From Protonemura montana (taxonomy: Eukaryota > Arthropoda > Insecta > Plecoptera > Nemouridae), in assembly GCA_947568835.1 (NCBI GenBank), contig OX387611.1, positions 9,490,001 through 9,554,000 on the forward strand: a stretch of 64,000 nt of DNA. Direction: 5' to 3'. Position 1 is the stretch's first letter; each line of letters starts with the position of its first letter. A program made the translations under genes and the position numbers. This document shows positions 168-42,100 of the stretch, in pieces. The notes below the pieces were generated by a model. It was not told the DNA's origin. It saw only the letters and a program-made list of their open reading frames with translations, and did not search any database.

Positions 168-3100
168 CTGCAAGGTGATGTCATTTGGTTAAGAAACTCT
201 GCGTTGTGGTGGGTTGGGTTGGTGGATAATAGACCAGCGCCAACACAGTGTGTCAAAGGAACAAGGCTAAGTGGTGGCCGGTCCTTGGTGCTGTTGGACA
301 GGAGCAGCCAACACAGTGTGTCAAAGGGACAAGGCTAAGTGGTGGCCGGTCCTTGGTGCTGTTGGACAGGAGCAGCCAACACAGTGTGTCAAAGGGACAA
401 GGCTAAGTGGTGGCCGGTCCTTGGTGCTGTTGGACAGGAGCAGCCAACACAGTGTGTCAAAGGGACAAGGCTAAGTGGTGGCCGGTCCTTGGTGCTGTTG
501 GACAGGAGCAGCCAACACAGTGTGTCAAAGGGACAAGGCTAAGTGGTGGCCGGTCCTTGGTGCTGTTGGACAGGAGCAGCCAACACAGTGTGTCAAAGGG
601 ACAAGGCTAAGCGGTGGCCGGTCCTTCGTGCTGTTGGACAGGAGCAGCCAACACAGTGTGTCAAAGTGACAAGGCTAAGCGGTGGCCGGTCCTTTGTGCT
701 GTTGGATAGGAGCAGCCAACACAGTGTATCAAAGGTACAAGGCTAAGCGGTGGCCGGTCCTTGGTGCTGTTGGACAGGAGCAGCCAACACAGTGTGTCAA
801 AGAATAAGGCAAATAGTTTCTCTACCTTCTTTCTCTTGGTGTTGACATAGATGCCGGACCTCGAAAGACCAAAGTCCGAGATCTTCAGCGTTTTGTTCTC
901 GTCTATGAGTACGTTTCGCGCCGCCAGATCGCGGTGGGTGATCTTTATCTTAGTGAGGTGCTCCATCCCACGCGCGATCTGCACGGCGAAGTTCTGCAAC
1001 TCTTTCGGGTCCAGCGTGTATTCAAGGTACTGTGACTGATCGTCAGGAGCTTGGTGTGCTGGTGTCAACGGGGCTGGGTTGTTTCCGTTACTAAGTAGAC
1101 TCCATTCAGCTAAAAGAGAAATGGAGAGAAATGGTTTTTATCAGGACAAGATCGTTACGAAATCATAACGAAAAATATCACTTATCTTCAATGTACATCC
1201 ATTTTTATTGTCGGGCTGTTCTACTTGCCCTAATGCTACATTAACCTCTACTGCCAAAGACTACTTTACCGTTGAAAATGCAGGATGAATTTGCATTTGA
1301 AACTGGTTTACGGTCAATAAATCTCTATGTATGCTCAACATATTCTTCTTAGTAATATCAATGTACGTGTTTGCTCAATCTTAGCGTCACTGACAATGTT
1401 TATATACATAAAATGTATGGAAAAACTGATATATCTAAATAAATAAATGAGCCTCAACGATTGATGAACAAGTTTCGATATCTTTTGTCGTGTTTTTTTA
1501 GTTGTAGAGAGTTTGTTAAAAAGGATAACTGCAAGAGCCATCCGTAACCACTTGTTGCCGGCTCGTTTGCTCTGCACAATGTTTAACATAAGTGCTTTAA
1601 GAGAAAAGAGGCTCGAAGTTGATTTTATTTGGCTCAAAAGAACACCCGAGACAGATTTGACTTAAATAATAACAAAGATAACAACATTTTGCATGAGCAT
1701 TTTGCATTGAAGTATGCGCTGAATTACGTCGGTTAGATATGTAACCTCTTCAACTAAGTAAACCTCTTCAGCTGATCGCAGTAATTTTCTAAAAATTAAA
1801 TTCTCAACACAACACTAATCTAGCGGTTATTTTGGGCTCACGCACGTAATGCGTACGTACGTGCCACGTACCCACATTTTCTTGCAATAGTGTTCGTCGA
1901 TCACTCATTCCAGGAAAAGTTTGGTCTACTCTACATTTAAATGCAAGAAACACATGCTATTTTTACGTGTTGGTGAACATTTTATTTGGAAATGGCACTC
2001 AGCAGAACGTAGGTACGTAACATAGGAACGTAGGTGATCTCGTAAGATCACCGAAGTTAAGCAACACTGCGCTGAGTCAGATATTGGATGGGTGACAATC
2101 ATACACATGACCAGTTCTGTTCGGGAGAGAGGTCGGAGGGATGAAAGTTAGTACATCAACTTCATTTGCCTTGCTTATCAACCTCTCGACAGCATGAATT
2201 TGTGGAGGAAACTTGCTGTTTGAGTTGTATCGTCCTTCGGAAGGGACGTTAAGCTGGTGGTCCCCTTGGTCTTCGACAGGAGTGGGCTACGTGCCGGCAC
2301 TAGGCTTCCCCTCCTCCCTTCTAGGCTAAGTTAGATTCATCATCATCCTCATCAACATCTACTCATTCACGGACGCCATTAGACCAGTGCCGCATGGCCA
2401 GATGTCAAAACAGTGAGTCGTTAAACACCACAAATAAAAAAAAAAAATATATATATAAAAGCTACCTCACCTAAGTCAGACTTGAACTTGAAGCTACTTG
2501 ATTTTGAAGATCATCATTAAGTCTATTTTCTTTATAAACACTTCACTTGACCTAGCTTTAGAAATTCATCTGGAACTTCCCAACAAAACAAACGGATCAA
2601 GCTCGAGATAACCTACCTTCCCCAAACAATACCCTTAACAACAAAAACCCCTTACTTCTAATGTTTGATGTTGGTGTTTTTTACGTGCTATTACATGCTC
2701 GCAAACATGACGTCTACAATTTCCAAGGAAATGAAGACAATACCTATTTGTTTTCATGGATGAAAGGGTGAAAGCACAGTTTGCGCTTGAGCTATGATGG
2801 TGTAATTTAGTTGATTGTCCCTTTGTGTGTCTATTGGAGCATATCAGTGCCGTTTTTGTGCGTTTTTTCCGTTGGCTTTCTTTGGGAAATGTGTCACAGA
2901 AATAGCCAGCAATGAAAAAAAAATTCCTTAAGCAAACTGTTTTGCTAAAGCAACAAAATTAAAATGCACAGTATTATTTTGGAAAACACAGAGAATGAAA
3001 AAAGTAGAATCGGAAGCTTAAAAGGAAAGCACGAAATAAAATGAAAAATGCTGAGATTTTTTGTTTTCAATGTTTTCACTTTATTTCATTCTCTGTGTTT

Positions 3101-6100: not shown

Positions 6101-9100
6101 TGGATTGGGAGCTAACTCAGGTCTATTGGAGTGGGAGCTTACTCAGGTCTATTGGAGTGGGAGCTTACTCAGGTCTATTGGAGTGGGTGCTTACTCAGGT
6201 CTATTGGAGTGGGAGCTTACTCAGGTCTATTGGAGTGGGAGCTAACTCAGGTCTATTGGAGTGGGAGCTTACTCAGGTATATTGGAGTGGGAGCTTACTC
6301 AGGTCTATTGGAGTGGGAGCTTACTCAGGTCTTTTGGAGTGGGAGCTTACTCAGGTCTATTGGAGTGGGAGCTAACTCAGGTCTATTGGAGTGGGAGCTT
6401 ACTCAGGTCTATTGGAGTGGGAGCTTACTCAGGTCTATTGGAGTGGGTGCTTACTCAGGTCTATTGGAGTGGGAGCTTACTCAGGTCTTTTGGAGTGGGA
6501 GCTTACTCAGGTCTATTGGAGTGGGAGCTTACTCATGTCTATATCTTAGCTTACTGGATACAACTAATCGGCCAAACCACTTGTCCTATCGCGACAAAAC
6601 AAAAGCTAGGCGACTCATTGCACTATTGGCAAAAGATTGACACTTTTTAAAATATAAAATATTATTTTGTCTTCTAGTTACACACGTTAAAAAAAAAGCC
6701 AGTTCAAAGCGTTTTTCCGGTGTTTTTCATAAAAAAAATCTGTGTTTTAGTGGCAGCTGTGGATCACATATTTGGTGAACAAGACAGGTGAACCTCACCT
6801 CAGGTACTGCAAAAGATCTCCACACGGAATGTACTCCATTATCATGCAGTACGGCTGTCGGATGGTGACGCACCCCAGGAGGGTAACGATGTTTGGGTGA
6901 CGACCGACTTTCTTGAGCATGGCGATCTCCGACAGGAACTCTTCCACCTCGTCGTTCTTGGCTTTCTCTGGTGGGACAAGTAAAGGAGAAATGCGTTGGG
7001 TTAGTTAGTGCGTATACACCGTACCGAGGTAATTTAAAGAGGTTTCATATATTTTTAGGGACCTCCAATTGGTAAGGTCAAAGAAAGTCTGGACCCGCGT
7101 GCGGTGGGTGTTTAGTTGGAGATGGAATTTTTAAAACAATATTTAAGATTTAACCTAGAGCGTACGGCACCTCCATTGACGAGGAATTAGTACCAATTCA
7201 ATTTCAATTTCAATTTGTTTATTTTGCATTGTAACAAATATTACATGTCAGAGTGCTCTCACAAAATTATGTTAAAACACGCTTTGGAAATTGTCAATGT
7301 TAAAAATAACTTATCATACAACCACAATCTTTCTTGTAAAAAGTTCTTCACTTCATTTTTAAAGATATTCGGCTTTTTAAAATTGTTATTCTGTTGGGAA
7401 GCCGATTATAAAATATTGGGCCCATATAAAAAGCTTTTCTTTTGTGCAATTTCAAGATTTCCTTTCTTGTACCTTATGTCAGCCTTGTTTCTCGTGTTTT
7501 ACTGTGTATATTTTCATTTAATCAAATCTATTTTGAATATCAGCTTTGATTATTTACGGATTTGTTTTAAAAACATAATCTAATAAGTATTGTCATAACT
7601 CATAACATAGAAACATGAATTTGGAATAAAATCTAATAAGAAGAGATCATAAAAATTAAAACGTATTACTTAATTTATATGTTTTAACTTATTTTCCTCT
7701 AACATCACTTTTGCTTCTTCAACATATTTTTTATTTTTTATTATTTTTTTAACTTTCCATTTAAAATTTTTATTAATTTTTTGCCTCAACTTTGAAATAA
7801 TTATCAGACATTTTCGTAGCTTCCAGTCGTGTAAAAGCAAAAAAGTTTGCTCACATTTCAATAGCAAATATAATTAAAATTTCTGGGACCCATGTGAATT
7901 CTGATTGGCTTCCGAGAGCGGGGAACGTTCTAGAAATGACAAATAATGAAGAGCCGTACAATTTTAATGACGTACTTCAACGAATCAAAATTTTGCATTT
8001 CTTCTGTAGATCTCATTTGTTAAAAAACAGCTGCATGCTCGTTAAAAAACATAATTGAATTCAAAATTTGATTGAAAAAAAAATTTATCTTTGGAAAGAT
8101 AGCTACAAGATCAAAAAACCATATGTACGCTTTTTTTAAGCGTCTCGTGCCATCCACCCCAAGACATGTTGAATGAGTATCGATGACGACATCGATACAC
8201 ATTGTCCAGCTATAGCGTCAATGCCAAGTCAATGCTTGTATCCGTAGAGATGGAGTCACCGTAATTTCAAGTAATTAGATATTTTATTTATTTATTTATC
8301 GCACATTTTACCCTTTAAAATCTTGCTTGATCGGCGTTTAAGGAAGGTTCAACCTGAACATACATTTTCCCCTTTCAGCCAACATTTTAAAAGATTTGAA
8401 AGAAAATTTTAAGATAAATACACAAAAAAGATATAATTTTAAATTTAAATTTGGTGATGATTCAGGAAGGCTTTGTTCTGTCACACAAAAGAATTTTATT
8501 TAGCAGCCGTCACTTTTTTCTCTCTGTCCAAATCGCCGTTTAATATTTGAACCTGGAAGGATGGGAGTTTAACTTTTAAACTGTCATTTGGAGGTCAAAG
8601 TTAGAAGTCTCATTGATATTTTGTTTGTATTTCCAAGTCAATAAATATTCCGTTTCGAAGCAAACACATTGTTTAATGCAAATATTTTCTTGTTTTCCGT
8701 GTTTTGTCCCAATTTTTTGGTTAGCAATTATTAAAATATCATTGTTTTAAAGCAAATAACTGCCCCGGTCAAAATCATTCCTAAAAGGCGTTAAGAGCTT
8801 TATAAAATGGCTTTGGTGAAATCTTCCCTCAAATATTGGCTGAAACTCAATTATTATTTATTAATGATACACAAGTGTCGATATCTTAAAGTGAAGTAAA
8901 ATTAAAAAGAGCGACCGCAAGCGCCATAGCGCCATCTTGTGGTCCTTTCTGTAACCACTTGCTGGAGGAAGTTGAACGTTAATTAATTAGCGCTATGACT
9001 CTGACTAATTGTAAATCTAATGCTAGTCAGACAAAGTAGAATCTGTACTGAGTGGATGCCAGGTTTCACATGTTCTATCAAACATGGCATTGCACGATCC

Positions 9101-12100
9101 AACTGAAATCAAGCCACTGTTTTGTATGATAGTGCAGTGAAACTTTATTCGCATACTAATTCAGTATGAGGTTAGTTAATTATCTGCAGGTGTAATTGGA
9201 ATTAATCTCGTTACCTCAGGGGTCTTTTAGTACAATACTAGTCATTCAATACTAGTAGTGCCCACGACCGCCAGTAGGTCTTTTCCATGAATTAGATCGA
9301 TTTGATTGAGGTGTTTGATATATAGATTAGTTAAAATGGGTTCTGGTCAATCCTTCAGAGAATGTTTCACCAAATCCCCGGTTATATCTTGTTTAATCGG
9401 CGAGTCAAGGTCTTAGGACAACATTGAGTTTCTCCGTTTAGCAAAGATTTTGAAAGATGGAAAAGATTATGTTTAAAGAAATACATTAATGTACTAAAAA
9501 AACTATTTTTTCTCTGTCTAATCACCGTTGGTGTTGGTGTTGGTTATGGCGTTGGCGACCTGTGCGATGGAATAGAATTGATTTTTGCCACAAAACCATT
9601 ACAACCCAGTAATTCAAAAAATCAAAAAAATAATTGTGCTCATTAAGCTCATAAAGCATATTAAGGTCATAAGGCTCATAAAGCTAGCGGCCCACATTAT
9701 GAAAGAGCGTAGGTAATAAATCCTATTAATACCAAACACAACAAACGCGCGCTTTCCAATAAGACACAATAAATTATCAAAGCCACACAAGTCCTGAAAA
9801 TCCCGGAAATTGCTTTTTCATTACAAAAAAGTGTTTTTGATGTTTTGTTTTCTTGCTTAGTGAAAAACGACACGGTTTAAAAGCTGACTTGCTAAAAACT
9901 GAAAAAAAAGGTCTATTAACGAACTACTAACGAAGAAATCCACAAATAAAACACACGCTGTAACCTAATTCATGAAATTTTCTATCCAATCATAATTACA
10001 AAATCAAATCACGAGTTAAATAAATACAAATTACTTTCCAGCTAAACTGATTCCGAGAACGCCATGTCTGCCGTGCACTCGGGATGCTCCAGTTTTGATT
10101 CTGGTAACAATAAATCCCTCCCGGGATTGCTTGAAATAAATTGCAAACATTGCAATTACGGGTCGATTGATTATTATTCGGGTTTAACGACGCACTGTTT
10201 TGACATCTGGCCATTTGGCACTGCTCTAATGGTGTCAGTGAATGAGTGAATGATGATGAGGATGAACATAACCAAGCCTAGAAGGGAGAAGGGGAAACCC
10301 TGGGTCAGCACATAGCCTACTCCTGTCGAATAACATCAAGACGACCACCAACTTAACCTACCTTCTGAAGGACGATCCTGATGTACGCGTTGTATCGTCC
10401 TTCGGAAGAGACGTTAAGCCAGTGGTCCGTTTTGTTTTCTTTAACTGAAGTAGGCTACTTGCACCCAAACGGTTTCCTCTCCCCCTTCTAGACTAAAATA
10501 GGTTCATCATCACCCACTCATTCACCAACACCATTTTCCCAGTGCCACAGAGCTGCACTGTCAAAACAGTTCGTCGTTAAACTCAATAAAGCTAATCATT
10601 TTTTACTTATGTGTCATGGTGCCATTAACATAGGTGTTACTCACGTTTTAGTTTCTTCACTGCCACGGTCGTGAACCCAGGAGTTCCGGCGATGCACTCT
10701 GCTCGGGCCACAAACACCCTGCCGAAGGCGCCCTTGCCAATCTCTCTTCCGAGCTCCAGTCGACCATAGCTGACCTCCAGGGTGTCGGCCTCTCCACGTG
10801 CCTTGGCTTCCTGTGGGGTTAAGCAACATTGTGACGTGTCAGTCGCTTTATGGGTGACCGCCAAATGCTTGGTAGAAATGCTTGGTAGAAATGCATTTTT
10901 CTGTTGGAAAAATACCAAATGGTAGTAAAATAGACCACTGGCAATTAGTAAAATTAATAATATTGATAAAAACCAGCACTGTTCGAGCTTAAGTGGGGAT
11001 TAAGCAACATTTTGACGAGTCAGGCGCTTTATGGGTGACCGCCAAATGGTAGAAATGCTTGATATAAATGGTAAAGCTGGTAGAAATGCATTTTTCAGAT
11101 GGAAAAATACCAGATGGTTGTCTGTTGCCAAGCAATTAACTGTCCTACTTACATGAACATACCCAAAAATGTACCAAACAAAAATATTCTTTTTAAAATG
11201 CTTACAGTATTATATCTTGAATCACTAAAGTAAAAGAACTGAAGCTTGTCTACTAGTTTTGTCATGGACTTTGCACTAGTTTTATTGTGAATTTCCAAGT
11301 TTCTTTGAAGAGTTCCAAGCATTACTTAAGCTTAACATTTCAAATCCCATTTAAATTCTAAAAGTAAGAGGTAACAACGACTTCGTTCAACGTTTTGGCT
11401 TTACAGACTTATCCTAGGGAAGATTATTTCAATACCTATTCGAAAGTTCCCACTCTGCTTTAGATAAAACCACAGTTTGAAATCAAAACAATTAAAATAC
11501 TGTCACAACAACAGCTTGCGGCTGTCTAAAATGTTATAAGCTAAGGTTGAACTAAAACACAAAACTAACTTGCAAACCAAACGAAAAGAAAACTTCTCTG
11601 AAGATCTGTCTAATCTAAACTAACACGGTACGAAACACAATGAAATCTGGCATCCACACCTAAAATAACACCAGTAATACTCTAGCCAGAGAAAATTCAT
11701 TCTCATATCATCATCCTAGAAGCGAGGAATAGAATTTCATACAAAGGCAGCTAAAAAAAAGACTTTCCCTTGGTAATAGACCCTTAAATTTGTTTGAACT
11801 AACTCTGTAAGCCTATATCTCCTTTTTGCCAGCGACAGCAAAAGTGGTCTCGGGTTTCGCCATAGCAAATTCCTAATTAGAACGTGAGATTTTGCAAAGT
11901 ATCTCAACTTTCTATGGCCCAGTGAAATCATGATTCTTAACATGTCAGAGCTTGCTTGTTATGAATTGAACGGATCAGCGGTATTAGCAGTATGTTGAAA
12001 CTCATAAAATGGCGATACAAGCAACGAGAGTCGCAGATGTTTCCAGGTGTTTGCACAGAAAGTTGGATAAAAACTCTCCTTTTTAACAAAAACGTTAAAC

Positions 12101-15100
12101 AATTATTTTGTCCAATAATTTTTGTTTGTTATAATGCCGTGTTAGCATTACGATACATTGTGTCAAAGGGACAAGGCTAAGCGGTGGCCGGTCCTTGGTG
12201 CTGTTGGACAAGAGCAGCCAACACAGTGTGTCAAAGGGACAAGGATAAGCGGTGGCCGGTCCTTGGCGCTGTTGGACAGGAGCAGCCAACACAGTGTGTC
12301 AAAGCGACAAGGCTAAGCGGTGGCCGGTCCTTGGTGCTGTTGGACAAGAGCAGCCAACACAGTGTGTCAAAGCGACAAGGCTAAGCGGTGGCCGGTCCTT
12401 GGTGCTGTTGGACAAGAGCAGCCAACACAGTGTGTCAAAGGGACAAGGATAAGCGGTGGCCGGTCCTTGGCGCTGTTGGACAGGAGCAGCCAACACAGTG
12501 TGTCAAAGCGACAAGGCTAAGCGGTGGCCGGTCCTTGGTGCTGTTGGACAAGAGCAGCCAACACAGTGTGTCAAAGCGACAAGGCTAAGCGGTGGCCGGT
12601 CCTTGGTGCTGTTGGACAGGAGCAGCCAACACAGTCTGTCAAAGGGACAAGGCTAAGCGGTGGCCGGTCCTTAGTGCTGTTGGTCAGGAGCAGCCAACAC
12701 AGTGTGTTAAAGGGACAAGGCTAAGCGATGGCCGGCTGTTGGTGCTGTTGGACAGAAGCAGCCAACACAGTGTGTCAAAGGGACAAGGCTAAGCGGTGGT
12801 CGGTCCTTGGTGCTGTTGGACAGAAGCAGCCAACACAGTGTGTCAAAGGGACAAGGCCTAGCGGTGGCCGGTCCTTGGTGTTGTTGGACAGGAGCAGCCA
12901 ACACAGTGTGTCAAAGGGACAAGGCTAAGCGGTGGCCGGTCATTGGTGCTGTTGGACAGGACCGTGCTACATGCCGGCACCGGACTAACTTCGGCTCCCT
13001 GCTATGCTGGGCTCGCATCAATATCAGCCTATCCGACACTGACAGCCAATAATCTAGTGCAATATGAAATCGTTTATAGAATGTGTCATTTAATGTCAAT
13101 CATGTCAATGGCTTTCCACCGAGTAAACATAACAATTTCATATTACTCCAAGCTAGAAGGTTACCTCCTTGAGGACGTGTGCAAGCATGCAACGATGTGA
13201 TTTCAGCGTTCACAATCGTCCGTTGGGTTTGACAGGAAACGGAAACCAATTTCCTGACTCTCGTTTTTCCGTTTTCCTCGAGTCAGTGGCCGGGAAATGT
13301 CTGGGTCCGGAATTCTATAGGAATTTTCCTCGCCATGGCAACAAGTGATTGGCAAATGTTCGACAGGAAACGCATGGGTGAAAAAACTCATACACGTGCG
13401 TGTATTTTTGGTTGATTCTTTCATTCGGTTCGTGAAATAAAATTGATAGACTTTATTTGGAAGTAAGGGAGGAGGGGTCTAAAAGTCTAAGGGGTAAGTC
13501 GTCTCAGTGTGCAAATCTCGACTCCAAATGGTGCCAGAAGCAAAATACTGATCCAGGCTGCTTCGACGTCTAAATATCTTACTATTCTGAAAATTGAATT
13601 CGTTTCGGTGCATAATTCACACTCCTGGAAGAGATTGTTTGTTTTGAAAAGTGGTATAACTTTTCTGCTGCTAAGGTAATCTAATCGAATGTGCATATTT
13701 ATATTCTTTTAAGCAAACATATTGTCTGTTTATAATTTTTCTTAAATGATGCATATATGCACGAGAAGCATATTAATTTTAAATGTAATGCTGAAAGTCT
13801 ATGATTGGTCTAGTTGTCACAGAATGACTTAACCCCAGAAGTTGCTGTCAGTATAAGTTCATTTTGTTTGTTTTGTAAATAATTGATTGTTTTTTTCTCT
13901 CCTTTTTACAGAGCCAATTTACAAAAATTTACCAATCACGAGTTTATAACGAGTTTATAAAAGAAAAACTCATCGGGGTCTGGTAGCACCCGATGTCATG
14001 TTACGCGCTGCTCAATTTGTGTTGCAGGAAAAAGTGGCAAAAGATTTTAACATAAATTATCGAACATTGACTCGGGATTATCATAAAATAACTGATGCAG
14101 ATTTTAATTAAATTATCACCTGTCCATTTTTAAATGAGATACAGAACAAACACCAGAGCTAGTGCCTTTTAATTAAATTATTTTATATACATGAACTAAT
14201 AAGCAATTTACCTACAGCTTTGTAGGCAACTAGCTGACTCAGATTGCATATGGTGACGGAATAAGCCAGTTATTATATATATTTTTTTCTTGTGCTAGGA
14301 ATAGCTTGATTTTAGAGGAATCCAAAGTATGCATGTATGTGCAGATCTGATATATTCAGAATTTCAATGTTTTTAATGTATAAAATAACTGTACAAAGAA
14401 GAACTTTACTAACTGTCTTTTACTGTATTTATTGAGTTTGCTTGGTGTAGGTTTTTATTTTTACAAGATGTAAAGAATGTTGTTGCAGGATGCAAAATGA
14501 GTTTGCAGAATGATTGCAGAATTTGCATGAGTTGATGTTTGAATTTAAATATCGTCAGAAACTTGCTATTCAATGTCTGGTTTGAAAACCGTAATATTGG
14601 GATTTAAGTAGTTTTTTCTTTCTTGAAAAAGCAAGAATTTGTGATTCCAAGTTTATAGCTAAAATGCGCGTATAATGTTGAGTAGTCATAGAATTAAAAA
14701 CAACAACAGGCCAAATAAACATTAGGATAACTTTACCAGCAGTGGCGGCTGGTGAGATATTGAGGTGACAAAGGGTAGATGTAAACATGGGTGAAAAAAA
14801 AAACAAGGGTGGTCGAAGAAAAAGTTAGTTTTGTGGGAGTAGCCACCCCCTAGATACCCCCTAGATCTATACAGTTTTTGAATATTTTAAGCCAGGTAAC
14901 CCTTCTAGAAAACCCAATTTTACACCTGATTTTTTTCAAGGCAAAAAACTTTATAGAAACATATGAGACGCCAAATTATGAATTATTAAACTGTCTTTAT
15001 ATTCAAGTTTAAAGTGTTTTACTATATTACAAACAGTAAGTTATTTCCATATGCTTTTTTTTTCAATTTTCTTTAATAATTTCCTGAAAATATTCATTTG

Positions 15101-18100
15101 AGTTCAAAAACTATTATCGTAGTTTTGGAGTGAGAGTGGGCAGGCCATTGCCACTTGCTACCTGTACGAGACCTGTTGCTTGATTGCGTCGAAGACGGCA
15201 GACAAATTATATATAGGGATACAGTTTTTTCCAATCTTATGAGGCAGTGCCAAAAAACCCCGTTGGTACAAAATTTTTCAACGAATTTTGATAAAATTTA
15301 AATGTAAATTTGCTTAAAACTTGATTATTTACTGGCAGATTTTTAATAAAAACGCGCGGGGTATCAGATGAGAGCTAAAAATAGTTTTCCTATCAGAATT
15401 TAAGCTACAGAATAACACTTCAAGAGCAGGATCAAGCTAATTATTACAAAATATCAAGACAGCTTACCAAATGTATTAAAGAGAGTAAATCAATTTATTT
15501 AGAAATCGACAGCTATCCAAATATATGGTTGACCATAAGGTCTAGATTACTGATCAATATTTTAAATACAAAATCAGAGTTACTGTAAGGGTCAGTTGTT
15601 CAGTGGTCCGTTAAAAACCTAACAGACCGTTATTTTGTAATTTGCTTGTTAACAGCCAATCAAAAGATGTTTTATGTTTGTTAACAGCATGTTTACCACC
15701 TAACGTATCACCGTAAAACCGACAAAGAGTATTCACAGCCTCGTGTTTCTAATCCTTGGAAATCCGTCATTCTCATACACTTAAATCCTCTCAAAAATGG
15801 CACGTCCAAGTAGCTCAATTGGTAAGAACACCAGCGACAGGTGGAGATCGGGGTTCTAATCATCATATAAATAATATTTTAAAAGATAAACAATCAAATC
15901 TAACCTCAATCTCTTTCTCCACGTAGATGACGCTGTGTTGCATTGACGGGAAGTTCGGGCGGCTTCGTGAGACTTCGGGTGCCACCGCCTTGTAGATTCC
16001 TTGCCATTGGACGGGGGGAAGATTGCGATCAAGAAACTTCCGCCTGACCCATGCACCGCAGCGTTGCCAGATCATCGCACAGGCCAGAATACAGGCCAGC
16101 ACGAATGTAACACTCGACAACACTGTCAGCCAAATCTGCTGAGAAATAAAAAAAACAAATCCTTATCAATCTAAATTTTTGCTTTTCTGGTTATTTATTA
16201 AATGTGTGGTGTTTAACGACGCATCGTTGTGGCATTGGGCCATGCGGCTCTGATTCAATAACCTTGGTCAATACGCGGGTGATGATGATGATGATAAAGG
16301 TAGTCTTGTCTAGTTTAGAAGGGAGGAGGTGAAATCCGGTGCCGGCACGTAGCCTACTCCTGTCGATGAGCACCAAGGGTTGGCGAGTTAGAAACAGCGG
16401 TTCTCGTGAGATCACCGAAGTTAAGTAACACTGCACTGAGTCAGGTATTGAATGGGTGACCATCATACACATGACCAGTTCTGTTCGGGAGAGAGGTTGG
16501 AGGGATGAAAGTTAAGCAACACTGAGCTGAGTCAGGTATTGGATGGGTGACCATCATACACATGACCAGTTCTGTTCGGGAGAGAGGTTGGAAGGATGAA
16601 AGTTAGTACAGCAACTTCATTCGCCTTGCTTATCAACCTCTCGACAGCATGAATTTGTGGAGTTATGGTGGTTTTCGCGTTGTACCGGCCTTCGGAAGGG
16701 ACGTTAAGCCGGTGGTCCCTCTGGTGCTCTTCGACAGAAGTAGGCTACGTGCTGGCACCGGGTTTTTACTTCTTTCTTCTAGGCTAGGTTAGTTTAATCA
16801 TCATACTCAAAATCATACTTCTATCATACTTTAAATGGCGTTGGTGAAATCGACCCTCAAAAACTTTCACTGCCATTGATACAATTGACAAGCGGAACGT
16901 AAAAGCACTGCGAGTTTGATTCTAGCCGAGGAGGTGCCGAGTCTTGTGCTCTGCGGGTAGTATCTCGAGTATTTTTTTTTAGCTTAAAATCAAAGTTAAG
17001 AAACGTTTTTCATTAGTCCATACCAACAATCCTTATCTTATTAGTGTCTTTCATTATAAAAAAAATATATATTTGACTTTTCTTTTTACATACGGCAAAA
17101 TAAACCTCTCTGACAATATTGATGGAAGTGCCAAGTTAGTTTGCTTTGCTGGTGGTATTCAGGGGCTACGTCACTGGGTTCTTACTGCTGGTGAAAAGCT
17201 GGCTTAGATATTTTTAAAGTTTGTAAGCCTTTAATATAATTATTATTTGTGGTGTTTAACGACGCACTGTTTTGACATCTGACCATGCGGCACTGGTCTA
17301 ATGGCGTCGGTGAATGAGTGGATGATGATGAGGATGATGATTAACCTAACCTAGCCTAGAAGGGAGGAGGGGAAACCCGGTGCCGGCACGTAGCCTACTC
17401 CTGTCGAAAAGCACCAAGGGGACCACCGGCTTCACGACCCTTCCGAAGGACGGAACAACTCGAACAGCAGGATTCCTCCACAAATCCATGCTGTCGAGAG
17501 GTTAATAAGCAAGGCGAGTGAAGTTGCTGTACTAACTTTCATCCCTCCAACCTCTCTCCCAAACAGAACTGGTCATGTGTATGATGGTCACCCATTCAAT
17601 ACCTGACTCAGCGCAGTGTTGCTTAATTTCGGTGATCTAACGAGAACCGGTGTTTCCCACACGCCAAACCGTACGGTGCCTTTAATATAAACAGATAAAG
17701 TTGTAAGAACATGCATTTCTCAAAAAACAATAAAAGCATTTTGATTATTGGTGTAGATTGCTAATTTATTTAGGAATCCTGTTGTTCGCGTTGTACCGCC
17801 CTTCGAAAGGGACGTTAAGCCGGTGGCCCCACAGGAGTCGGCTTCGTGCCGGCACCGGGTTTCTAGGCTAACCCGGGTTAGTGCTCCCTTCTAGGCTAGG
17901 TTAGGTTCATCATCATCTTTATCATCATCCACTCATTCACCGACGCCATTAGACCAGTGCCGCAGGGCCAGTTGTCAAAACAGTGCGTCGTTAAACCTTA
18001 ATAATCAATAGCACTACCATAACAAGGTCAATAGCTGGATCAGCTGGATTTGTTTAAAATCTGGTTAAAACAAGGATTATGCCAGTATTATTCGTAATTT

Positions 18101-24100: not shown

Positions 24101-27100
24101 CCCACTTTAACAACCCGTGACTAAACGATTTATGAACTTTAATTGGGTTGGTTGCATTTTTATTTTTATTTATCGTTGTCCTAGATTTGGTAGATATATC
24201 GAACAGTTTGACGTGTTGGAAACACCGGTTCTCGTTAGATAACCGAAGTTAAGCAACACTGCGCTGAGTCAGGTGTTGGATGGGTGACCATCATACACAT
24301 GACCAGTTCTGTTTGGGAGAGAGGTTGGAGGGATGAAAGTTAAGCAACACTGCGCTGAGTCAGGTATTGGATGGATGACCATCATACACATGACCAGTTC
24401 TGTTCGGGAGAGAGGTTGGAGGGATGAAAGTTAAGCAACACTGCGCTGAGTCAGGTGTTGGATGGGTGACCATCATACACATGACCAGTTCTGTTCGGGA
24501 GAGAGGCTGGAGGGATAAAAGTTAGTACATCAACTTCACTCGCCTTGCTTATCAACCTCTCGACAGCATGGATTTGTGGAGGAATCCAGTTGTTCGCGTT
24601 GTACCGTCCTTCGGAAGGGACGTTAAGCCGGTGGTCCCATTGGTGCTCTTCGACAGGAGTAGGCTACGTGCCAGCATCGAGTTTCCCCTCCATTCTTCTA
24701 GGCTAGGTAAGGTTCATCATCATCCTCTTCATCATAACGATTTTTATCAACTGATTATTTTGATTTGATTCTGGCCGATATCGAATCAAGTTTTTACAAA
24801 GTAACAAAGTTTTTCATCTATGTATTTTATTTTTTAAATAGGAAAGTCCCCATTAAAAGTTCTTCTGTTCCTGATTTGCTTTCACTTGAGACAATTGATA
24901 ACTTTCTGATGGACACTTCAGCCAGGCTTTTAACACAAATTGTTAATGCAGATCCCAATGCGGTCAGACTTTTGAGGGTCGAGATCAATTGGAATAAATC
25001 TTTAAAACAATACAGTTTACAGGAGAGTTACAGTTCTATGACAATGTTGTGATCATCTCTGTTATTATTTGGCACAGTTTTACTCACCCCTGATCCACTA
25101 GGAACGTCATTCTTCGGCTTCTTTGGAACTGCAAATGGAAAAAAAATCAATTAGTTCCGTTTTGTTCCGTAATTGTTCCGGTTGCATTTTTTTCCAATCT
25201 GGTTTTTTTTTATCCTTCGCTTGCTGGTTTCAGCCTCTTGGTGGAAACACAAGAAAAACCAAAATCTCTGCAACAACCGTCTATCTTTCGAGATACAAAC
25301 AGGTTTCGAGGGAAAAGTGACTGTCAATAGGGAATTCTCCTTAAGATTATTATTTAATTATTATCATTGTGTTCAAATACGCGTTTAAAATAAAATCTGA
25401 TGTATTTTTTCTTTTTATAATCCGATCATAACTTTTCTATTTCTATTTGTTTTAAGAATGGCTAAAATATAAAATTCTCGTGGCGGGATGAAAACGGGCT
25501 GTGAATACCTGACAGGTAGTTCTGACGTCTTTCTTTATCACAAAAATCCCGTTTGTTTTCAATTTTGACACTTTGACAAAAGACTTACAATCAAGTATTT
25601 GTAAAGTTTTTGAGCTGTTAAATGAGTGTTCTTTAGTATTTTATTCACAATTTTTCCGACTTGAATTTGTGAATTTTGTCCATTTTACTTTCATCGCAAT
25701 GGATCGGTTTCACATTTTATCATCTCCAAAAATCGCTACGCTCATCCAGCAACGAAGCTCAAATCGCGTCCTCGACGTCCTAGCTTCAAAGTAAATAGTA
25801 ATAGTAAGTAAAAGCGTTTTAAACAGCGAGATTGAAATCGGCCAACAGCAAAAAAAAAATTAAATTTAAAATTTAAAAAATTAGCTCGCTGGCACGTGGT
25901 GACGAGATTAAAGTTACCCACATTTTTAAACTTTAAATCCTCAGCTTCCTGTGATCCAATAACTGTCACGTCCATTACTGTCAGTGTGGATAGACCTAAA
26001 GTGCTGAGACAGCCCCTGTGGAAAATCTCATCCGAAGATTCTATTCTCACTTTTGAAAAAGAAAAAAATTTTCGCAGGTGAAAATTCTTTTAAAATCGAT
26101 TGCGAGCCGTTTATTAAATTGCTTAGCGAATGATACGTTCCGATGTGATATTCTCTCTGATCTCTAAAGGAGACAATTTAAAGGCATGACACAAAAAATT
26201 GACAGCAAAAGAACTGCATACTGAAACGACGCACAGGTTTTTGACCACTCACTGTGGCACTGGTCTAATGGCGTCGGTGAAAGAGTGGGCGATCATTTAA
26301 GTAATCTTGTCTAGAATGGGAAAGAAAAATCATGTGTCAAAACGTAGCCTACTCATATAGAAAAGTACCAATCAGATGAACGTCCCTTCCGAAGGACGGT
26401 ACAACGCGAACAACAGGATTCTAAAACAAATCCATGCAGTCGAGAGGTTGATAAGCAAAGCGAGTGAAGTTGCTGTACTAACTTTCATCCCTCCAACCTC
26501 TCTCCCAAACAGAACTGGTCATGTGTATGATGGTCACCTATCCAATACCTGACTCAGCGCAGTGTTGCTTAACTTTCATCCCTCTAAACTCTCTCCCGAA
26601 CAGAACTGTACAGCTGAGTCTAGCTTTTAATTTTCGCTGAAAATTAGTTAGTATTCGAAACACTCGCAACAGGTGGAGATCGGAGTTAGGGTGCCGTTTG
26701 GGCATCAATTTTTGTGAGGGATGATAATCCCTAATAATAATAATAATAATTGAAATAATAATAATTCTAATAATTGAAAATCGGCTCCGAATAAAGAGCT
26801 GAACTAAGCTGAATTAATCAAAAGTTTCGTTAAAATTTCACCGAAAATCGGTCCAGCCGCTTGTCCAGTTGAGAGCAAAAAAAAAAGGAAAACATTAATT
26901 TTTTCCAACTTTTTTTTTCTTTTGGTATTGACGGGAAACCCGGTAAGCGGATAACGATGGCATCGCCTAACGAGCGTCTTGTGTGTCAATCGATTTACCT
27001 TTCAAGAATGGATGCTTGTTAATGGAAATGTTCCCAAAATAAACCTGTTGCTGGAAGGGCGATGCCTGACCCAACGTCTCAAACAACCAAGTCACCGAGT

Positions 27101-30100: not shown

Positions 30101-33100
30101 CTGCGTATCGAGCATTGACCACTACATCACTGGGTGAACTGCGTATACCCGCGTGCATTGACCACTACATCACTGGGTGGACTGCGTACACCCGCGTGCA
30201 TTGACCACTACATCACTGGGTGGACTGCGTACACCCGCGTGCATTGACCACTACATCACTGGGTGGACTGCGTACAACCGCGTGCATTGACCACTACATC
30301 ACTGGCTGGACTGCGTACACCCGCTTGCATTGACCACTACATCACTGGGTGGACTGCGTACACCCGCGTGCATTGACCACTACATCACTGGGCGGACTGC
30401 GTACACCCGCGTGCATTGACCACTACATCACTGGGTGGACTGCGTAAACCCGCGTGCATTGACCATTTCATCACTGGGTGGACTGCGTACACCCACCTAT
30501 CTTGAGAACGTGCGTAGGACTGGAATCTAAAATTGTAAAAAATGTTCTTAATTTTCAGGCAAAGCGCACGGCACCTCCGTTGACATCACACATTACTTTC
30601 TATGTTTGAGGTTGAACCTTAGATGATTAACGTTTTTAATAAGATAAAAAAATGTTATGAATAATAGTAATAATTAAACTGTTTAATATTTTTCTCCTTA
30701 GCACCCACGCTGATAAACAACAACTTTGATATTTAAAACTCAGAGTTGTTTGAATTATCTAATTTTGTATGTTTTTATTGATGAAACCTTTAATTTTATT
30801 TGTGCGTTTTTTTTTTGTGGTTTAAAATCATAAAGTTTGAATTTAAGTTCAATGATATCTTGAATAATTAATTTTTTTGGGTAGAAAGAAGAAACAGACC
30901 AAATTTACTAGAAAAAAACTGGATCTTCTTTTCCGTGGATTAAAAAAAAATTCGAGTATGTGTAAGATAAGTGATTGAATGACGAAGGATTCAGTAACTA
31001 TCGCTCCTAAATGTAAAAACTGCAAGAGAATTTTCTTATTATCAACACTATAACAGTCTCAAAAATCGATGCCCAAACGGGGAGTCCCCCTTTGGAGATC
31101 GATTTTTGAGACGGTTCTAGTGTTGATAATAATAAAATACCCCGCGCATTGCAAGCGTTTGCAATTTTAATAAGATTTCATCCAAATACAGCAAGAGAAT
31201 ATTTGATTTGAGACTCACGCCACGGTAAAGTTTGTTATTTTCACGCCGACAGCGCCAATCTCGCTCGCCGGGTAAGACCACGTGATGTTCACGGAGGTCG
31301 CGTTTAGCTGTTTTGCTAGCGTAACTTTCGGTCTGGCGATCCCCCCGAATGGCTTGCAGTTACATTTCGTACCGACGCAGTCTGCAGATGACCGCAAACA
31401 CAAAAACAAGTTAGTAAGCTTGACTAGCTTAGCAGGGAACTGAGGGTCAACCAGGTGTCGGCACGCATCCTGCTCCTAAACAACAGCACCAAGGACCAGC
31501 CACCGCTTAGCTTTGTCCCTTTGACACACTGCGTTGGCTGCTCCTGTCGGACAGCACCAAGGACCAGCCACCGCTTGGCTTTGTCCCTTTGACACACTGT
31601 GTTGGCTGCTCCTGTCCAACAGCACCAAGGACCGGCCACCGCTTAGCCTTGTCCCTTTGACAAACTGTGTTGGCTGCTCCTGTTCAACAGCACCAAGGAC
31701 CGGCCACCGCTTAGCCTTGTCCCTTTGACACACTGTGTTGGCTGCTCATGTCCAACAGCACCAAGGACCGGCCACCGCTTAGCCTTGTCTCTTTGACACA
31801 CTGTGTTGGCATTTTTTCTGTGTTTGCGCTGTCTATTGGTTGTACAGTCTGTTGATAAAGTAAAACTGGTCTGGGAAAGAGTCGATGGTTGGCAACGTCA
31901 CGTACCTGGGACCGTGTAATTGACTGTGATCCCCTGCTTTGGCACGTGTTCGTCGTTGAATAGAGTCACGTTGTAGTTGCAGCCTGGCATGATCTTCAAG
32001 CCCGTTGAGCCATGATTATGCTCTGACTTGGTTGGCATCAGAAAAGACGTAGTGGTCTGGAGAGAAAACAATACTTGCTTTTGTCTTGAAATTTAGCATA
32101 GTTTGGTAATAGTTTGGAAATAATTTGGTATTTTCAGGCGATTGCTGACTAGAATCAGGAAGAAATATTTAACCTTTTTGGTGGCATAAATCAAAGCTGC
32201 TTTATTGTAGTGCTACCATGGTGCTACTTGATAAAACCGGTGGTTACCATATAACGGAGATTCTACGATAGTGGCATAATCAAGAATTCGTACTATATTT
32301 CATTTGATCATCACAGTGCAGTGGGGACAAAGCAACCAATTGCACGAAACATTGGTCAGGGTTACTGCTTGGTGCTAGTTAGCACGGTGCTACTGACAGT
32401 AATACCAGGGTTACGAATCACCGCTCTAGGTCGGGGTCACTGCTTGGTGCTATGGTTGTGCTAGTTAGCACGGTGCTACTGACAGTAATACCAGGGTTAC
32501 GAATCACCGCTCTAGGTCGGGGTCACTGCTTGGTGCTATGGTTGTGCTAGTTAGCACGGTGCTACTGACAGTAATACCAGGGTTACGAATCACCGCTCTA
32601 GGTCGGGGTTACTGCTTGGTGCTTTGGTGGTGCTAGTTAGCACAGTGCTACTGACAGTAATACCAGGGTTACAAATCACCGCTCTAGGTCGGGGTTACTG
32701 CTTGGTGCTATGGTGGTTCTTGTTAGCACGGTGCTACTGACAGTAATACCAGGGTTACGAATCACCGCTCTAGGTCGGGGTTACTGCTTGGTGCTTTGGT
32801 GGTGCTAGTTAGCACTGTGCTACTGACAGGAATACCAAGATTACGAATTACCGCTCTCGGAAAGGCCCCTGAATATTATGATGAATAGATCTTGTAAACC
32901 TTAAACAGATTTAGATAAGACAAGGATAAGATAAACAGTCATAAATTCACGTCATAATGAGGTCAATGTTTGTATAGACAGAACACAATATGGATCCTCT
33001 TTCAATGTCCAGCTAAAAATATTCCTTTTATTGACTTATTTCCATGGTCACAGCCAATGAGGTTCTTTTATATGCATTTCTACCTCCGAATATTGTTCTA

Positions 33101-36100
33101 CCTAGACGTGGTTAAACAGGAGTATGTTTCTAAATGGCAATTCTACGTTACGGGCTAAACCATTGTCACAAGCTCTGATCAAGACTTTGTAGGGTGTAGA
33201 GCTCGAGGCTTGGTCTTGGTAACTGATCTGTATTTGATGTGGTAAATGAAACTCACATTGAGGTTGTTGACTTTTTATTTACGAATACGCGACAGTAAGA
33301 GCTACCACGATCAAGGCAGGCAAGACCAGGACCAAGTAAAATCGCTTTTAACAAACGCGTCTACTTTATTAAACCATCTTTTAAAAGAATATTAAAAAAA
33401 AAAATATATATATATATGTATATTTGCAATGTTTTTTGGTTTTTCTGGCATTTTCTTTAGGGCGCTTAAGCCAGCAAGCGGATGATGAAAAGAAAGCTAG
33501 ACTAGAAAAGTGTGCAACTGAACCGGGATACGAACCCTGGACCAATTGCCGGTCGGGTGCTCAAGGGGGAGAGGATCCTTTATCCCACCCCCGTGAAAGC
33601 TAGAATATGTGTGTCCGGATAGTTCAGTTGGTAGAGAACACGACCGGCAATTGGGAGGTCCCGGGTTCGTATCCCGATTCGGTTGCACATTCTCCCAGTC
33701 TAGCTTCCTTTCAATATATATATATATATATGTTTCACAAGACAGCTAATTTTCTCAATGATTTGCAATCTTTGCCTGTTTCTTCACTTAGGGTAAGCAC
33801 AGATATTGCTCTGCACCTTTCTTGCTTTCACCCTTGTTGAAAAAAGGCTATAGTTGCGTTGCGCTAGGATAATTGGTTGCTTTACGATAAAAAAATAATC
33901 CAGGCTTTGAACGTTTATTTTCGTGTCAAATTCGTTTTTCTCTTTTCCTATTAGCTTAAAGCTACTTTACTTGTTTACGATACTTTCCCATGTCAAGTGT
34001 GGTTCATGCAAAGCAATTTCAAAACGTGCCTGACAATGGTATTTACTGCACGTGTGAACATGCAACATGAAGTTGCCGTTAATGACAAAGTCTACGTCGA
34101 ATTCTGCAACCAGATCAGATAACAAATGGAGCTAATTAATTTAAACTAACCAGATAGCAGGGCATTTCACACAATAGAAATCACTTCAGAATTATGATAC
34201 AGGTGACATCGCTAAAACTGCCTCAGACCACCAAATGATGTATTTGATTGATTAGCATTGTTTAATAACAATAATAGTGAGCGTTAGACTAACCTAACCT
34301 AGGTAGGATAAATTAACCTGGTACCGGCACGTAGCCTACTCCTGTCGAAGAGCACCAAAGGGACAACAGGCTTAACGTATCTTCCGAAGGACGGTACAAC
34401 GTAAACAACACCAAAAATCCATGCAGTCGAGAGACAGAAAAGCAAGGCGAGTGAAGTTGAACTAACTTTCAACCCTCTAGCCTCCCTGCCGATCAGAACT
34501 GGTCATGTGTATGATGGTCACACATCCAATACCTGACTCAGCGCAGTGTTGCTTAACTTCGGTGATCTCACGAGAACCGGTGTTTCCAACACGCCAAATC
34601 GTTCGGGAAAGAACATTGAATACACATTTCTTAGCTTAGGGAAAGATATAAAAAATGAGGTCTGGGAAATAACTTATAAGGTCTTGAAGGAAAAGTTGAT
34701 ATAAAAGGTACAATTGAAGTAATTAGAAGTGAAATTCGTGCTGTACGTTGATTTTAAAAGATACCGACGAGATGTTTGCTAGCGGGCTACGCGAGCCACG
34801 AGATTAAAATCTATCAAACTTCTCTTACTGTAGACGCAAATTTTCAATTACGTGTCACGGAGATTTCTTCTTTCTGCGCTTGAAGCATTAATGACTTTTT
34901 GACATTTTAAAGACCTCTTTTCTTGAATAAGCCGCTCTCACTAGGAAATCGAAAGTGTCATGTAATAGGAAAATGTGTCACCGATCTAATTTCTATTTGG
35001 AAAAGAGTTCTACAGTAAAGCATACTCATGGCATAACTGTCAGTAGCACTGCACTAACTAGCACCAAGCAGTAACCCCGACCTAGAGCGGTGATTCTTTA
35101 CCCTGGGATAACTGTCAGTAGCACCGTGCTAACTAGCACCACCATAGCACCAAGCAGTAACCCCGACCTAGAGCGGTGATTCGTAACCCTGGTATTACTG
35201 TCAGTAGCACCGTGCTCACTAGCTCCACCATAGCACCAAGCAGTGACCCCGACCTAGAGCGGTGATTCGTAACTCTGGTATTACTGTCAGTAGCACCGTG
35301 CTAACTAGCATCACCATATCACCAAGCAGTAACCCCGACCTAGAGCGGTGATTCGTAACCTTGGTATTACTGTCAGTGGCACCGTGCTAACTAGCACCAC
35401 CATAGCACCAAGCAGTAACCCTGGTATTACTGTCAGTAGCACCGTGCTAACTAGCACCACCATAGCAGCAAGCAGTAACCCCGACCTAGAGCGGTGATTC
35501 GTAACCCAAGTATTACTGTCAGTAGCACCGTGCTATTTGGCACCACCATTACACCAAGTGATAACCCTGACCTAGATCGGTGATTCGTAACCCTGGTGCA
35601 CTATCAGTTGATGCTTTTAATTAGCTAATTTTAAACACTAGTACAAAGGTTGAATGAAATACACATGTGTCGATTGTAAACAAACTAGAATTATTGACAT
35701 AGATGACTAGTTCCAAAATAAAAGAGAAATATGTTAGCACTCACGCCTGGTAAGTTGTCTTTCGCTGAATACTCCCAAGGCTGGCAGTACTTGTCATCGT
35801 CCGGTGCCATGGAGTATATCTGGATGTGGGACATGGAAGACTGGCTACCTTTGTCTGGAAAACGCAAAACATTGGATTTTTGAAAAGCGCAGCATAAAAT
35901 AAACATTTGGAGGTGCTTAAGAATGTAGAGTTTTCAAGTCCCGGCAGTTTTTATTTTTGAATATTTTTTGGGACCCGAACTTTGTACAGCTAATAATAAA
36001 TTGCCTGGCCTAAATTTTTACTAGCTGGTTAGATCCTTTGCTCTTATCCAGGTTATTAGAGATCAGCTGGCTGGATCCTATGTTCTATCCAGGTTATTTG

Positions 36101-39100: not shown

Positions 39101-42100
39101 TTTTACGAAGTTAAACCGGTGGTCCCCTTAGTGCTTTTAACAGGATTAATTGATTCCCCATATAATAAAACTGTTAAAATTAAAAAAAAAAAAATCAATA
39201 ATATGGGAAACAAAATATGTGTTGTAACGAGACAAAAAAGAAGGCCTTTAAGTTACTTGAAATCTTATTTAAATTGCAAACGCTTGCAATGCGTGGAGTG
39301 TTTTATTATTAACAACACTAATACCATCTATCGCGGGTCTTGCTCTAACCCATTGAGCTACTTGAACACATGATTTTTGAGACATTTTTTGTGTATTTGA
39401 GTTGGGTAGACCTGAACACTGGTTTAGGGTCAAGATTGCAGAATGCAGTTCAATTTAACAGTTGACTCACCTGGCGGCAAGTTCCACGTGACGTTGAGCA
39501 TGACGACAGGTTTTGGGTTGTACATGAACAGCGCTGTAGCAGACAAGCGCACGGACTGCAAGGCGGATTCGATGGACGCCACTGCAAGAAAAAACAGAAC
39601 ATTCATATATAACAGAAAAACGTTACAAACAAAAAAAAAGATTAGTGGGGTTTAAAGCGACACACTGTTTTGTCAACGGGTCATTTGGCACGGGTCTAAT
39701 GGTGTCGGTGAGCGAGTGGATGATGATAATGATGATTATAAAGATGTTGATGAACCTAACCTAGTCTAGAGATTATAATAAGTGGAGAAGGGAGGAGAGA
39801 GGAGAATAAATCTGGTGCTGGTCCACAACCTGACCCTGTCAAAGAGCACCTAGGGGACCACTGGTTGAACGCCCCTTCCAAATGACGGTAAAACGTGAGT
39901 AACTTCATAAATCCATGCTGTCGAGAGGTTGATAAGCAAGGCGAATGAAGTTGCTGTACTAACTATCATCCCTCCAACCTCTCTCCCGAACAGAACTGGT
40001 CATTTGTATGATGGTCACCCATCCAATACCTGACTCAGCGCAGTGTTGATTAACTTTCATCCCTCCAACCTCTCTCCCGAACAGAACTGGTCATGTGTAT
40101 GATGATCAACCATCCAATACCTGACTCAGCGCAGTGTTGCTTAACTTTCATCCCTCCAACCTCTCTCCCAAACAGAACTGGTCATGTGTATGATGGTCAC
40201 CCATCCAATACCTGACCTAGCGCAGTGTTGATTAACTTTCATCCCTCCAACCTCTCTCCCGAACAAAACTGGTCATGTGTATGATGGTCACCCATCCAAT
40301 ACCTGACCCCGCGCAGTGTTGCTTAACTTTCATCCCTCCAACCTCTCTCCCGAACAAAACTGGTCATGTGTATGATGGTCACCCAACCAATACCTGACTT
40401 AGCGCAGTTCATCTCAACCCTTTCCGAACATCTATATATATGTGTTGGTCCTCAATAGATTTACATTCTTACAATTGAACCATATATTTTCACTTAGCAA
40501 AAAAACGATTTTTAGTAGCAATAAAATTTATTTGCGAAATGTATGCAAGAATTAAGTCATTATTTACATTTTTAAAACTTTTAAAGTAGGTATGATAGCT
40601 GTGAAAGCATTTCTTACACTTAATTTTGAATATTAGGAAAACAAAATTTCGAATGACACCCGCCATAAGACCCACGAGAATAATACCGATAAATCGAACA
40701 GTTTGTCGTGTTGGAAACATCGGTTCTCGTTGGATCACCGAAGTTAAGCAACACTGCGCTGGGTCAGGTATTGGATGGGTGACCATTATACACATGACCA
40801 GTTCTGTTTGGGAGAGAGGTTGCAGGGATGAAAGTTAAGCAACACTGCGCTGGGTCAGGTATTGGATGAGTGACCATCATACACATGACCAGTTCTGTTC
40901 GGGAGAGAGGTTGCAGGGATGAAAGTTAAGCAACACTGCGCTGGGTCAGGTATTGGATGAGTGACCATCATACACATGACCAGTTCTGTTCGGGAGAGAG
41001 GTTGGAGGGATGAAAGTTAGTACAACAACTTCACTCGCCTTGCTTATCAACCTCTCGACAGCATGGGTTTGTAGAGGAATCCTGTTGTTCGCGTTGTACT
41101 GTCCTTCGGAAGGGACGTGAAGCCGGTGGTCCCCTTGGTCTTCGACAGGAGTAGGCTACGTGCCGGCACCGGGTCTCCCTCCCTCCCTTCTAGGCTAGGT
41201 TAGGTTCATCATCATCCTCATCCTCATCCGCTCATTCACCGACGCCATTAGACCAGTGCCGTATGGCCAGATGTCAAAACAGTGCGTCGTTAAACACCAA
41301 TAATCATTTAATAAAATTGGCTTGAATGAGATTTTCGTTTTTTTCATTTACTGTAAATATATGGTTCTATTTAATAGAGTAAATAGAAGTAACTAGTATA
41401 TGTTACGAAACGTCGGGAGATTTAGTTGTCCCTTACTAAGCATTTAAAACCTATTTCAAATAGTTTTTCTTTAATTTACGATATTTATATATTTTTTTAT
41501 TGATTTAACTAAAAATATTTTAATCTCACCCTGAAGATGGCAGTTCAAACTTGGCTGAAATATCGGGAGAAGTTATTTTTAGCACAGAAACCTTTGAAAA
41601 AGAGTATAAACCGAAAAATCACTAGTATCATACACCCAACGGCTCTCAAAACCTTAAGGAAATAAAAAAAATATATATATTTGTATTTCATCAGATTCCG
41701 TATGGCCCTTAAGGGATTTAATTTTGTTGTTCTTGTAATTTGAAAATTTCTGTTTGGTCAAAAGATATAAATTGGATTTTATTTATTTAGGTTCTTTGAA
41801 AATAGATGCTATATCATTGTCTGGACGTGTAAAAGCTATTCGTGTTTTTCTATCCAGTTTCAATCCACGCAAGTTTTGTGCCCGATCGATATCGATCCTT
41901 GCAAATCGATGCCCAAACGGGGACTCAAACCCCGATCTCCACCTATTGCGGGTGTTGCTCTAGCTCATTGAGCTACTTGGACACTGGCTTTTTGAGACGA
42001 TTTTAGTGTATTTGATGAGAATGACAGTTCTCCAAGGAGTAGAACCAAGAGGCTGTGAATACTCACAGTCACTCTGATTCTAGTGACGCTATATCACATC

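Follow-up and report, generated by a model that had tools for sequence, protein, structure and literature searches.

A 68-bp minisatellite in Protonemura montana and its probable origin in the 3' half of a 5S-headed SINE

Arrays, SINE copies and gene settings in the window

The window analyzed here is a 64,000-nucleotide stretch of the Protonemura montana genome assembly (contig C14, positions 9490001–9554000; the genome comprises 258 Mb in 34 contigs). A 68-bp minisatellite array lies near its left side, two further arrays of the same family occur elsewhere in it, and copies of a 5S-headed SINE are found in both orientations (Table 1).

Table 1. Arrays of the 68-bp minisatellite, SINE-tail remnants and SINE copies in the window
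Feature	Position	Strand	Basis and remarks
68-bp minisatellite array	12155..12961	+	TRF: 11.9 copies, 93% matches
Terminal "long unit" (final core followed by SINE-derived tail)	12913..13087	+	137/175 aligned bases match
Second 68-bp array	239..813	+	TRF; in intron of tyrosine-kinase gene on - strand
Third 68-bp array, ~5 copies	31470..31810	-	TRF
SINE-tail remnant (long unit 76–177), upstream of third array in unit orientation	31795..31889	-	71/92 aligned bases
SINE-tail remnant (long unit 46–107), downstream of third array	31416..31477	-	51/62 aligned bases
Full-length 5S-headed SINE, single 91-bp head unit	17236..17677	-	96.8% to consensus; Rfam 5S 17558–17676
5S-headed SINE copy	2038..2443	+	Consensus 33–441, 92%
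5S-headed SINE copy, single head unit	34289..34606	-	Rfam 5S, SINE alignment
SINE copy, two 91-bp head units	16377..16816	+	TRF, SINE alignment
SINE copy, three 91-bp head units	24200..24735	+	TRF, SINE alignment
SINE copy, three 91-bp head units	40695..41314	+	TRF; aligned as far as consensus 441
SINE copy, ~five 91-bp head units	39641..40408	-	TRF, SINE alignment

Exons of a tyrosine kinase flank the second array on both sides, as identified by Pfam PF07714 (E 3.7e-20 and 9.5e-13) together with reading frames. The third array apparently also sits in an intron, in the sense orientation of its gene, judging by splice words and exons identified visually; an exon tried beside it had no Pfam match. 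Read in unit orientation, this locus consists of a SINE-tail remnant (31889–31795), about five short units and a second remnant (31477–31416), flanked by donor-like and acceptor-like splice words. Outside the window, the array at locus L028 is flanked by two Pfam Ldh_1_C matches, one of them below the curated cut-off. Because three of seven peptides searched against Pfam had no family match, some flanking exons are read as protease or fibronectin-like from visual inspection only.

Splice signals at the array flanks were scored with general splice-site weights. In sense, they exceeded the 95% level of the null at 8 of 47 left flanks and 8 of 59 right flanks; in antisense, the counts were 5/47 and 4/59, with about 5% expected. 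The proposal that arrays generally occupy whole introns, from one splice site to the other and in sense, was rejected because this excess is weak, and intron-filling is therefore claimed for single examples only. The array probably lacks a coded function and behaves as a passenger tandem repeat.

Five window matches to 5S rRNA (Rfam RF00001) lie above the gathering score, each heading a longer repeat that is a SINE copy. We built a SINE consensus from 30 genome copies found with the copy at 17236–17677 and trimmed it to 442 bases; it consists of a 5S head, a body, the 3' end GTCGTTAAACACC and an AAT tail. For comparisons of distribution, the SINE set was the 40 best-scored of 2853 candidates, which is not a random sample. 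Target-site duplications (TSDs) scored at least 8 in 27 of the 30 copies, with 0.3 expected from re-pairing of flanks. The element therefore has the hallmarks of a 5S-headed SINE, namely a 5S rRNA-derived head, a simple-repeat AAT tail and TSDs. Its 3' end has 6,865 genome matches at up to three mismatches (reversed control, 0). Two diverged SINE 3' halves also lie in opposite orientations with overlapping starts at 10170–10599 (one running from 10374 to 10170, the other from 10363 to 10599).

Unit structure, relic arrays and the 91-bp head minisatellite

The 68-bp unit aligned to positions 236–288 of the 30-copy SINE consensus with a score of 50, which none of 1000 dinucleotide shuffles reached (maximum 33), and its match to the 5S-headed SINE, proposed in the earlier note, is upheld. 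The right flank alone (12962–13110) also aligned to the SINE (score 56; maximum of 1000 shuffles, 42). No SINE sequence was recognized in the left flank (12001–12154), whose score of 18 was matched or exceeded in 873 of 1000 shuffles. The continuation of the array's right end in SINE sequence had previously been placed as far as 13010, and the homology reaches 13087, about 77 bases further. The segment 12913–13087 tracks a long unit from its first to its last base, and direct alignment to the SINE covers 236–388.

The long unit, which many array ends carry, has a consensus of 177 bp that is colinear with SINE positions 236–417 of 442 (score 186; shuffle maximum 39; 0/1000 shuffles reach it). 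Because its last base joins its first, it is the SINE 3' half arranged head to tail, and it ends immediately short of GTTAAACACC in the SINE. Removing 109 internal bases from this long unit yields the 68-bp unit. The latter is itself colinear with SINE 236–288, and its last part is matched only via the long unit. The description of the unit as SINE core was thus right about its derivation and too simple about its make-up, since the SINE 3' end and the core are joined with 109 bases missing between them.

Several loci combine the two unit types. L111/L094 contains tandem long units with no short unit in that orientation and an inverted short array nearby. L109 carries, in order, a partial long unit, a long unit, one short unit and a partial long unit; at L079 a pair of short units stands between long ones; and at L084 a 5S-head remnant is followed by a long unit and then by short units. 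Intermediates between SINE and array, which the earlier note had suggested seeking, therefore exist. Twenty loci fetched by a core-tail match all had a longer unit (at least 120 aligned bases), as their selection dictates. Genome-wide, 10,542 short-unit junctions and 78 long-unit junctions were found at up to three mismatches, and reversed-pattern controls gave 0 for both. The head-to-tail junction written in modern SINE letters had no genome match at up to three mismatches, though SINE 3' ends match thousands of times at the same tolerance, so the joining looks old; the idea that the emergence of the minisatellite had been caught in the act fails on this comparison (0 matches versus 6,865). 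The SINE copies that we compared match the long unit at only about 64–77%, too little to single out one copy or subfamily as the donor.

A second minisatellite of the window, with a 91-bp unit, matches this SINE at its 5S head (score 186; maximum of 400 shuffles, 43). SINE copies in the window carry one, two, three or about five of these head units, and expanded head units with an ordinary 3' end also occur outside it, at L018 and, to the locus limit, at L040. The 91-bp unit could be explained by a slip between two AAGTTA words in a consensus read by eye; no such repeated word was noticed at the 177-bp join. At 47576–47714 the first 93 bases of the SINE head are repeated head to tail (1–93 then 1–47), with a joint that differs from that of the 91-bp unit, and the SINE copy at 53333–53794 has a doubled head at its start.

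The 11 other minisatellite families of the window (17 to 118 bp) scored within their own shuffles against the SINE. A SINE origin of the window's minisatellites in general was rejected, as only 2 of 13 unit families match, and the test is one that can fail, because 11 of 13 did so. Unit-to-unit scores, which have no shuffle control, were weak (42 for the 91- and 118-bp units, 39 for the 68- and 70-bp units).

Array ends, homogeneity and chromosomal distribution

We mapped 66 array elements, 41 of them with both ends. A TSD score of at least 8 was found in 1 of these 41 (0.44 expected), compared with 27/30 SINEs, SINE ends having been set by sequence words and array ends by BLAST. One array, at L032, has a 9-base flanking repeat. 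The ends are ragged and stop at many different points in the SINE tail or the short unit; at L037, L079 and L083 the right end reaches SINE position 425, 439 and 440, respectively.

SINE tail lies beside at least one end in 19 of 43 array rows (left 9/37, right 13/40, both 3) and in 0 of 69 distal flanks; the 43 rows count both ends of one long array separately. In the other 24 rows, such flanking sequence as was available lacked SINE tail. The prediction that flanks of other arrays would contain SINE sequence accordingly holds for the first group of rows and not for the second. A longer, SINE-matching terminal unit, as in SINE-derived satellites, is thus present in those 19 rows and in the window array.

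5S sequence adjoins an array element at 4 of 60 loci (upstream at L023, L041 and L084, inverted at L089), in a scan that includes some loci without the left end of the array. Of the 40 scored candidates for a query running from 5S to core, taken from L084, two included the 5S portion, namely L084 itself and L023. Because of these two counts, the link to the head is thin. The arrays therefore lack the marks of retroposed SINEs, with TSDs in 1/41 and an upstream 5S head at 3/60 loci. At L089 (297–356) the inverted 5S SINE head directly abuts the end of the 68-bp array. At L093 (545–901) 31 bases separate a 68-bp array from the array that comes next, which belongs to a 26-bp family also found in the window at 5822–6542; the 26-bp unit has no SINE match.

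Units of the same locus were 96.6% identical and units of different loci 96.2%, as measured on the 42 loci that have five or more units, out of 59 loci and 1,182 units in all, with the three window arrays pooled as one locus. The arrays studied were the best 40 scored of 794 candidates by query match, a choice that favors similarity between loci.

Contigs C12 to C15, which make up 24% of the genome, hold 31/38 arrays and 71/78 long junctions versus 11/40 SINEs, although some of the 38 array positions are close neighbors and not independent. Elsewhere, six of seven arrays lie within 10% of a contig end, compared with 1 of 29 SINEs. The median relative distance to the nearest contig end was 0.199 for the 38 arrays versus 0.349 for the 40 SINEs (p 4e-10); the 78 long junctions had no contig-end preference (median relative distance 0.338, p 0.31). 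On the large contigs C1, C2, C4 and C11, arrays lie near the ends among the matches listed; on C1, for example, exact short-unit matches are at 0.92 and 31.2–31.8 of 33.1 Mb.

Proposed origin, dispersal and related systems

We propose that the 68-bp repeat is probably a SINE-derived minisatellite, whose founding 3' half was joined, shortened and then dispersed at the DNA level. From the alignment, the SINE 3' half (236–417 of 442) would have been joined head to tail into a 177-bp tandem unit, and, as the alignment and the relic arrays suggest, one long unit would have lost 109 internal bases to give the 68-bp unit. The pattern of near-equal likeness between and within loci is consistent with subsequent expansion and dispersal of the short unit to about 10,500 copies. 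We infer that this dispersal took place at the DNA level. Broken pieces of a parent array of long and short units may have been captured at breaks or exchanged ectopically, with local expansion after landing and no reverse transcription of the SINE. More tentatively, a SINE fragment may have become a minisatellite mobile at the DNA level, pieces of array with arbitrary ends having been inserted repeatedly without TSDs and then grown, mostly on four chromosomes and at the ends of large ones, so that some introns would now consist mostly of array.

The earlier note held that the minisatellite was born in the SINE and spread with it. The birth is supported; the spread is not, as the arrays examined lack TSDs, end at varying points, seldom adjoin a 5S head and are distributed over the chromosomes differently from the SINE. 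These same observations (TSDs in 1/41 arrays versus 27/30 SINEs, ragged 5' and 3' ends, a different distribution) make it improbable that arrays spread by being retroposed inside the SINE, in spite of the SINE tails in 19/43 rows, the three right ends that reach SINE 425, 439 and 440, the flanking repeat at L032 and the 91-bp head arrays that do occur inside SINE copies with normal 3' ends; as the main route, retroposition with the SINE was rejected on the TSD comparison. Growth of every array independently from a resident SINE copy would draw on plentiful SINE copies (6,865 3' ends at up to three mismatches), and the 91-bp arrays, with 1 to about 5 units, do resemble growth in place. However, a single deletion junction is common to 10,542 units at up to three mismatches and units are 96% identical between loci, on which grounds independent growth of the 68-bp unit at each SINE was rejected and is given very little credence.

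The unit might instead have been born in a relative that shares the SINE 3' half, such as a partner LINE or a differently headed SINE. The match of SINE copies to the long unit at only about 64–77%, the missing modern-letter junction and the small number of arrays adjoining a 5S head all favor such a source, but 3'-half copies that are not 5'-truncated run into 5S-derived sequence, and no other head appeared among 11 copies and the window matches. We consider a relative unlikely, though less so than retroposition. That the resemblance to the SINE arose by chance is barely conceivable given alignment scores far outside those of shuffles. Derivation from the 5S-headed SINE followed by dispersal at the DNA level remains our preferred reading.

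The beginnings of dispersed minisatellites and satellites are mostly inferred; here one genome contains the donor, the intermediate head-to-tail unit, the shorter unit derived from it and relic arrays that mix the two. Insertions of the donor SINE serve as an internal control, and by that standard the derived arrays seem to move in another way. Since one SINE appears to have given rise to two different minisatellites, elements of this type may repeatedly seed tandem repeats.

A word-matched search of titles and abstract openings in the open-licence literature found no report of a minisatellite from a 5S-headed SINE. As far as the available parts of the relevant reports describe, the "mirage" minisatellites of amphioxus duplicate an intron-exon boundary, with splicing reportedly undisturbed (PMC3087553, PMC3902484). 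The arrays described here resemble them in being minisatellite-like and located at introns, undisturbed splicing being a feature of the mirages; unlike mirages, their units are SINE-derived, and visual inspection of the 68-bp units at 239–813 and 31416–31889 showed no exon edge. In maize, tandem repeats derived from centromeric retrotransposons are described in the accessible portion of one report (PMC3648361). They share with the 68-bp repeat a relation to retrotransposon sequence, and differ from it in their Ty3/gypsy source and centromeric setting.

We judge the SINE-derived satellites (sSats) of squamates to be the closest known kind, with the 68-bp repeat as a variant. In the sections available, squamate sSats are described as having a tandem unit from part of a SINE with longer SINE-matching terminal units, and as being alike within and between loci and biased toward chromosome ends, in contrast to their SINE, which is dispersed (Vassetzky et al. 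2023; PMC10702118). The arrays here likewise have a SINE-colinear unit from part of the SINE, a long terminal unit, homogeneity (among query-like arrays) and a subtelomeric preference (for arrays, not for long junctions). Judged against the same sections, four differences stand out (PMC10702118): the squamate sSat SINEs are tRNA-related whereas the SINE here is 5S-headed; the unit here is a head-to-tail join with an internal deletion; the head of this SINE has also yielded a second minisatellite; and some arrays at least are intronic, with four contigs holding most of those examined.
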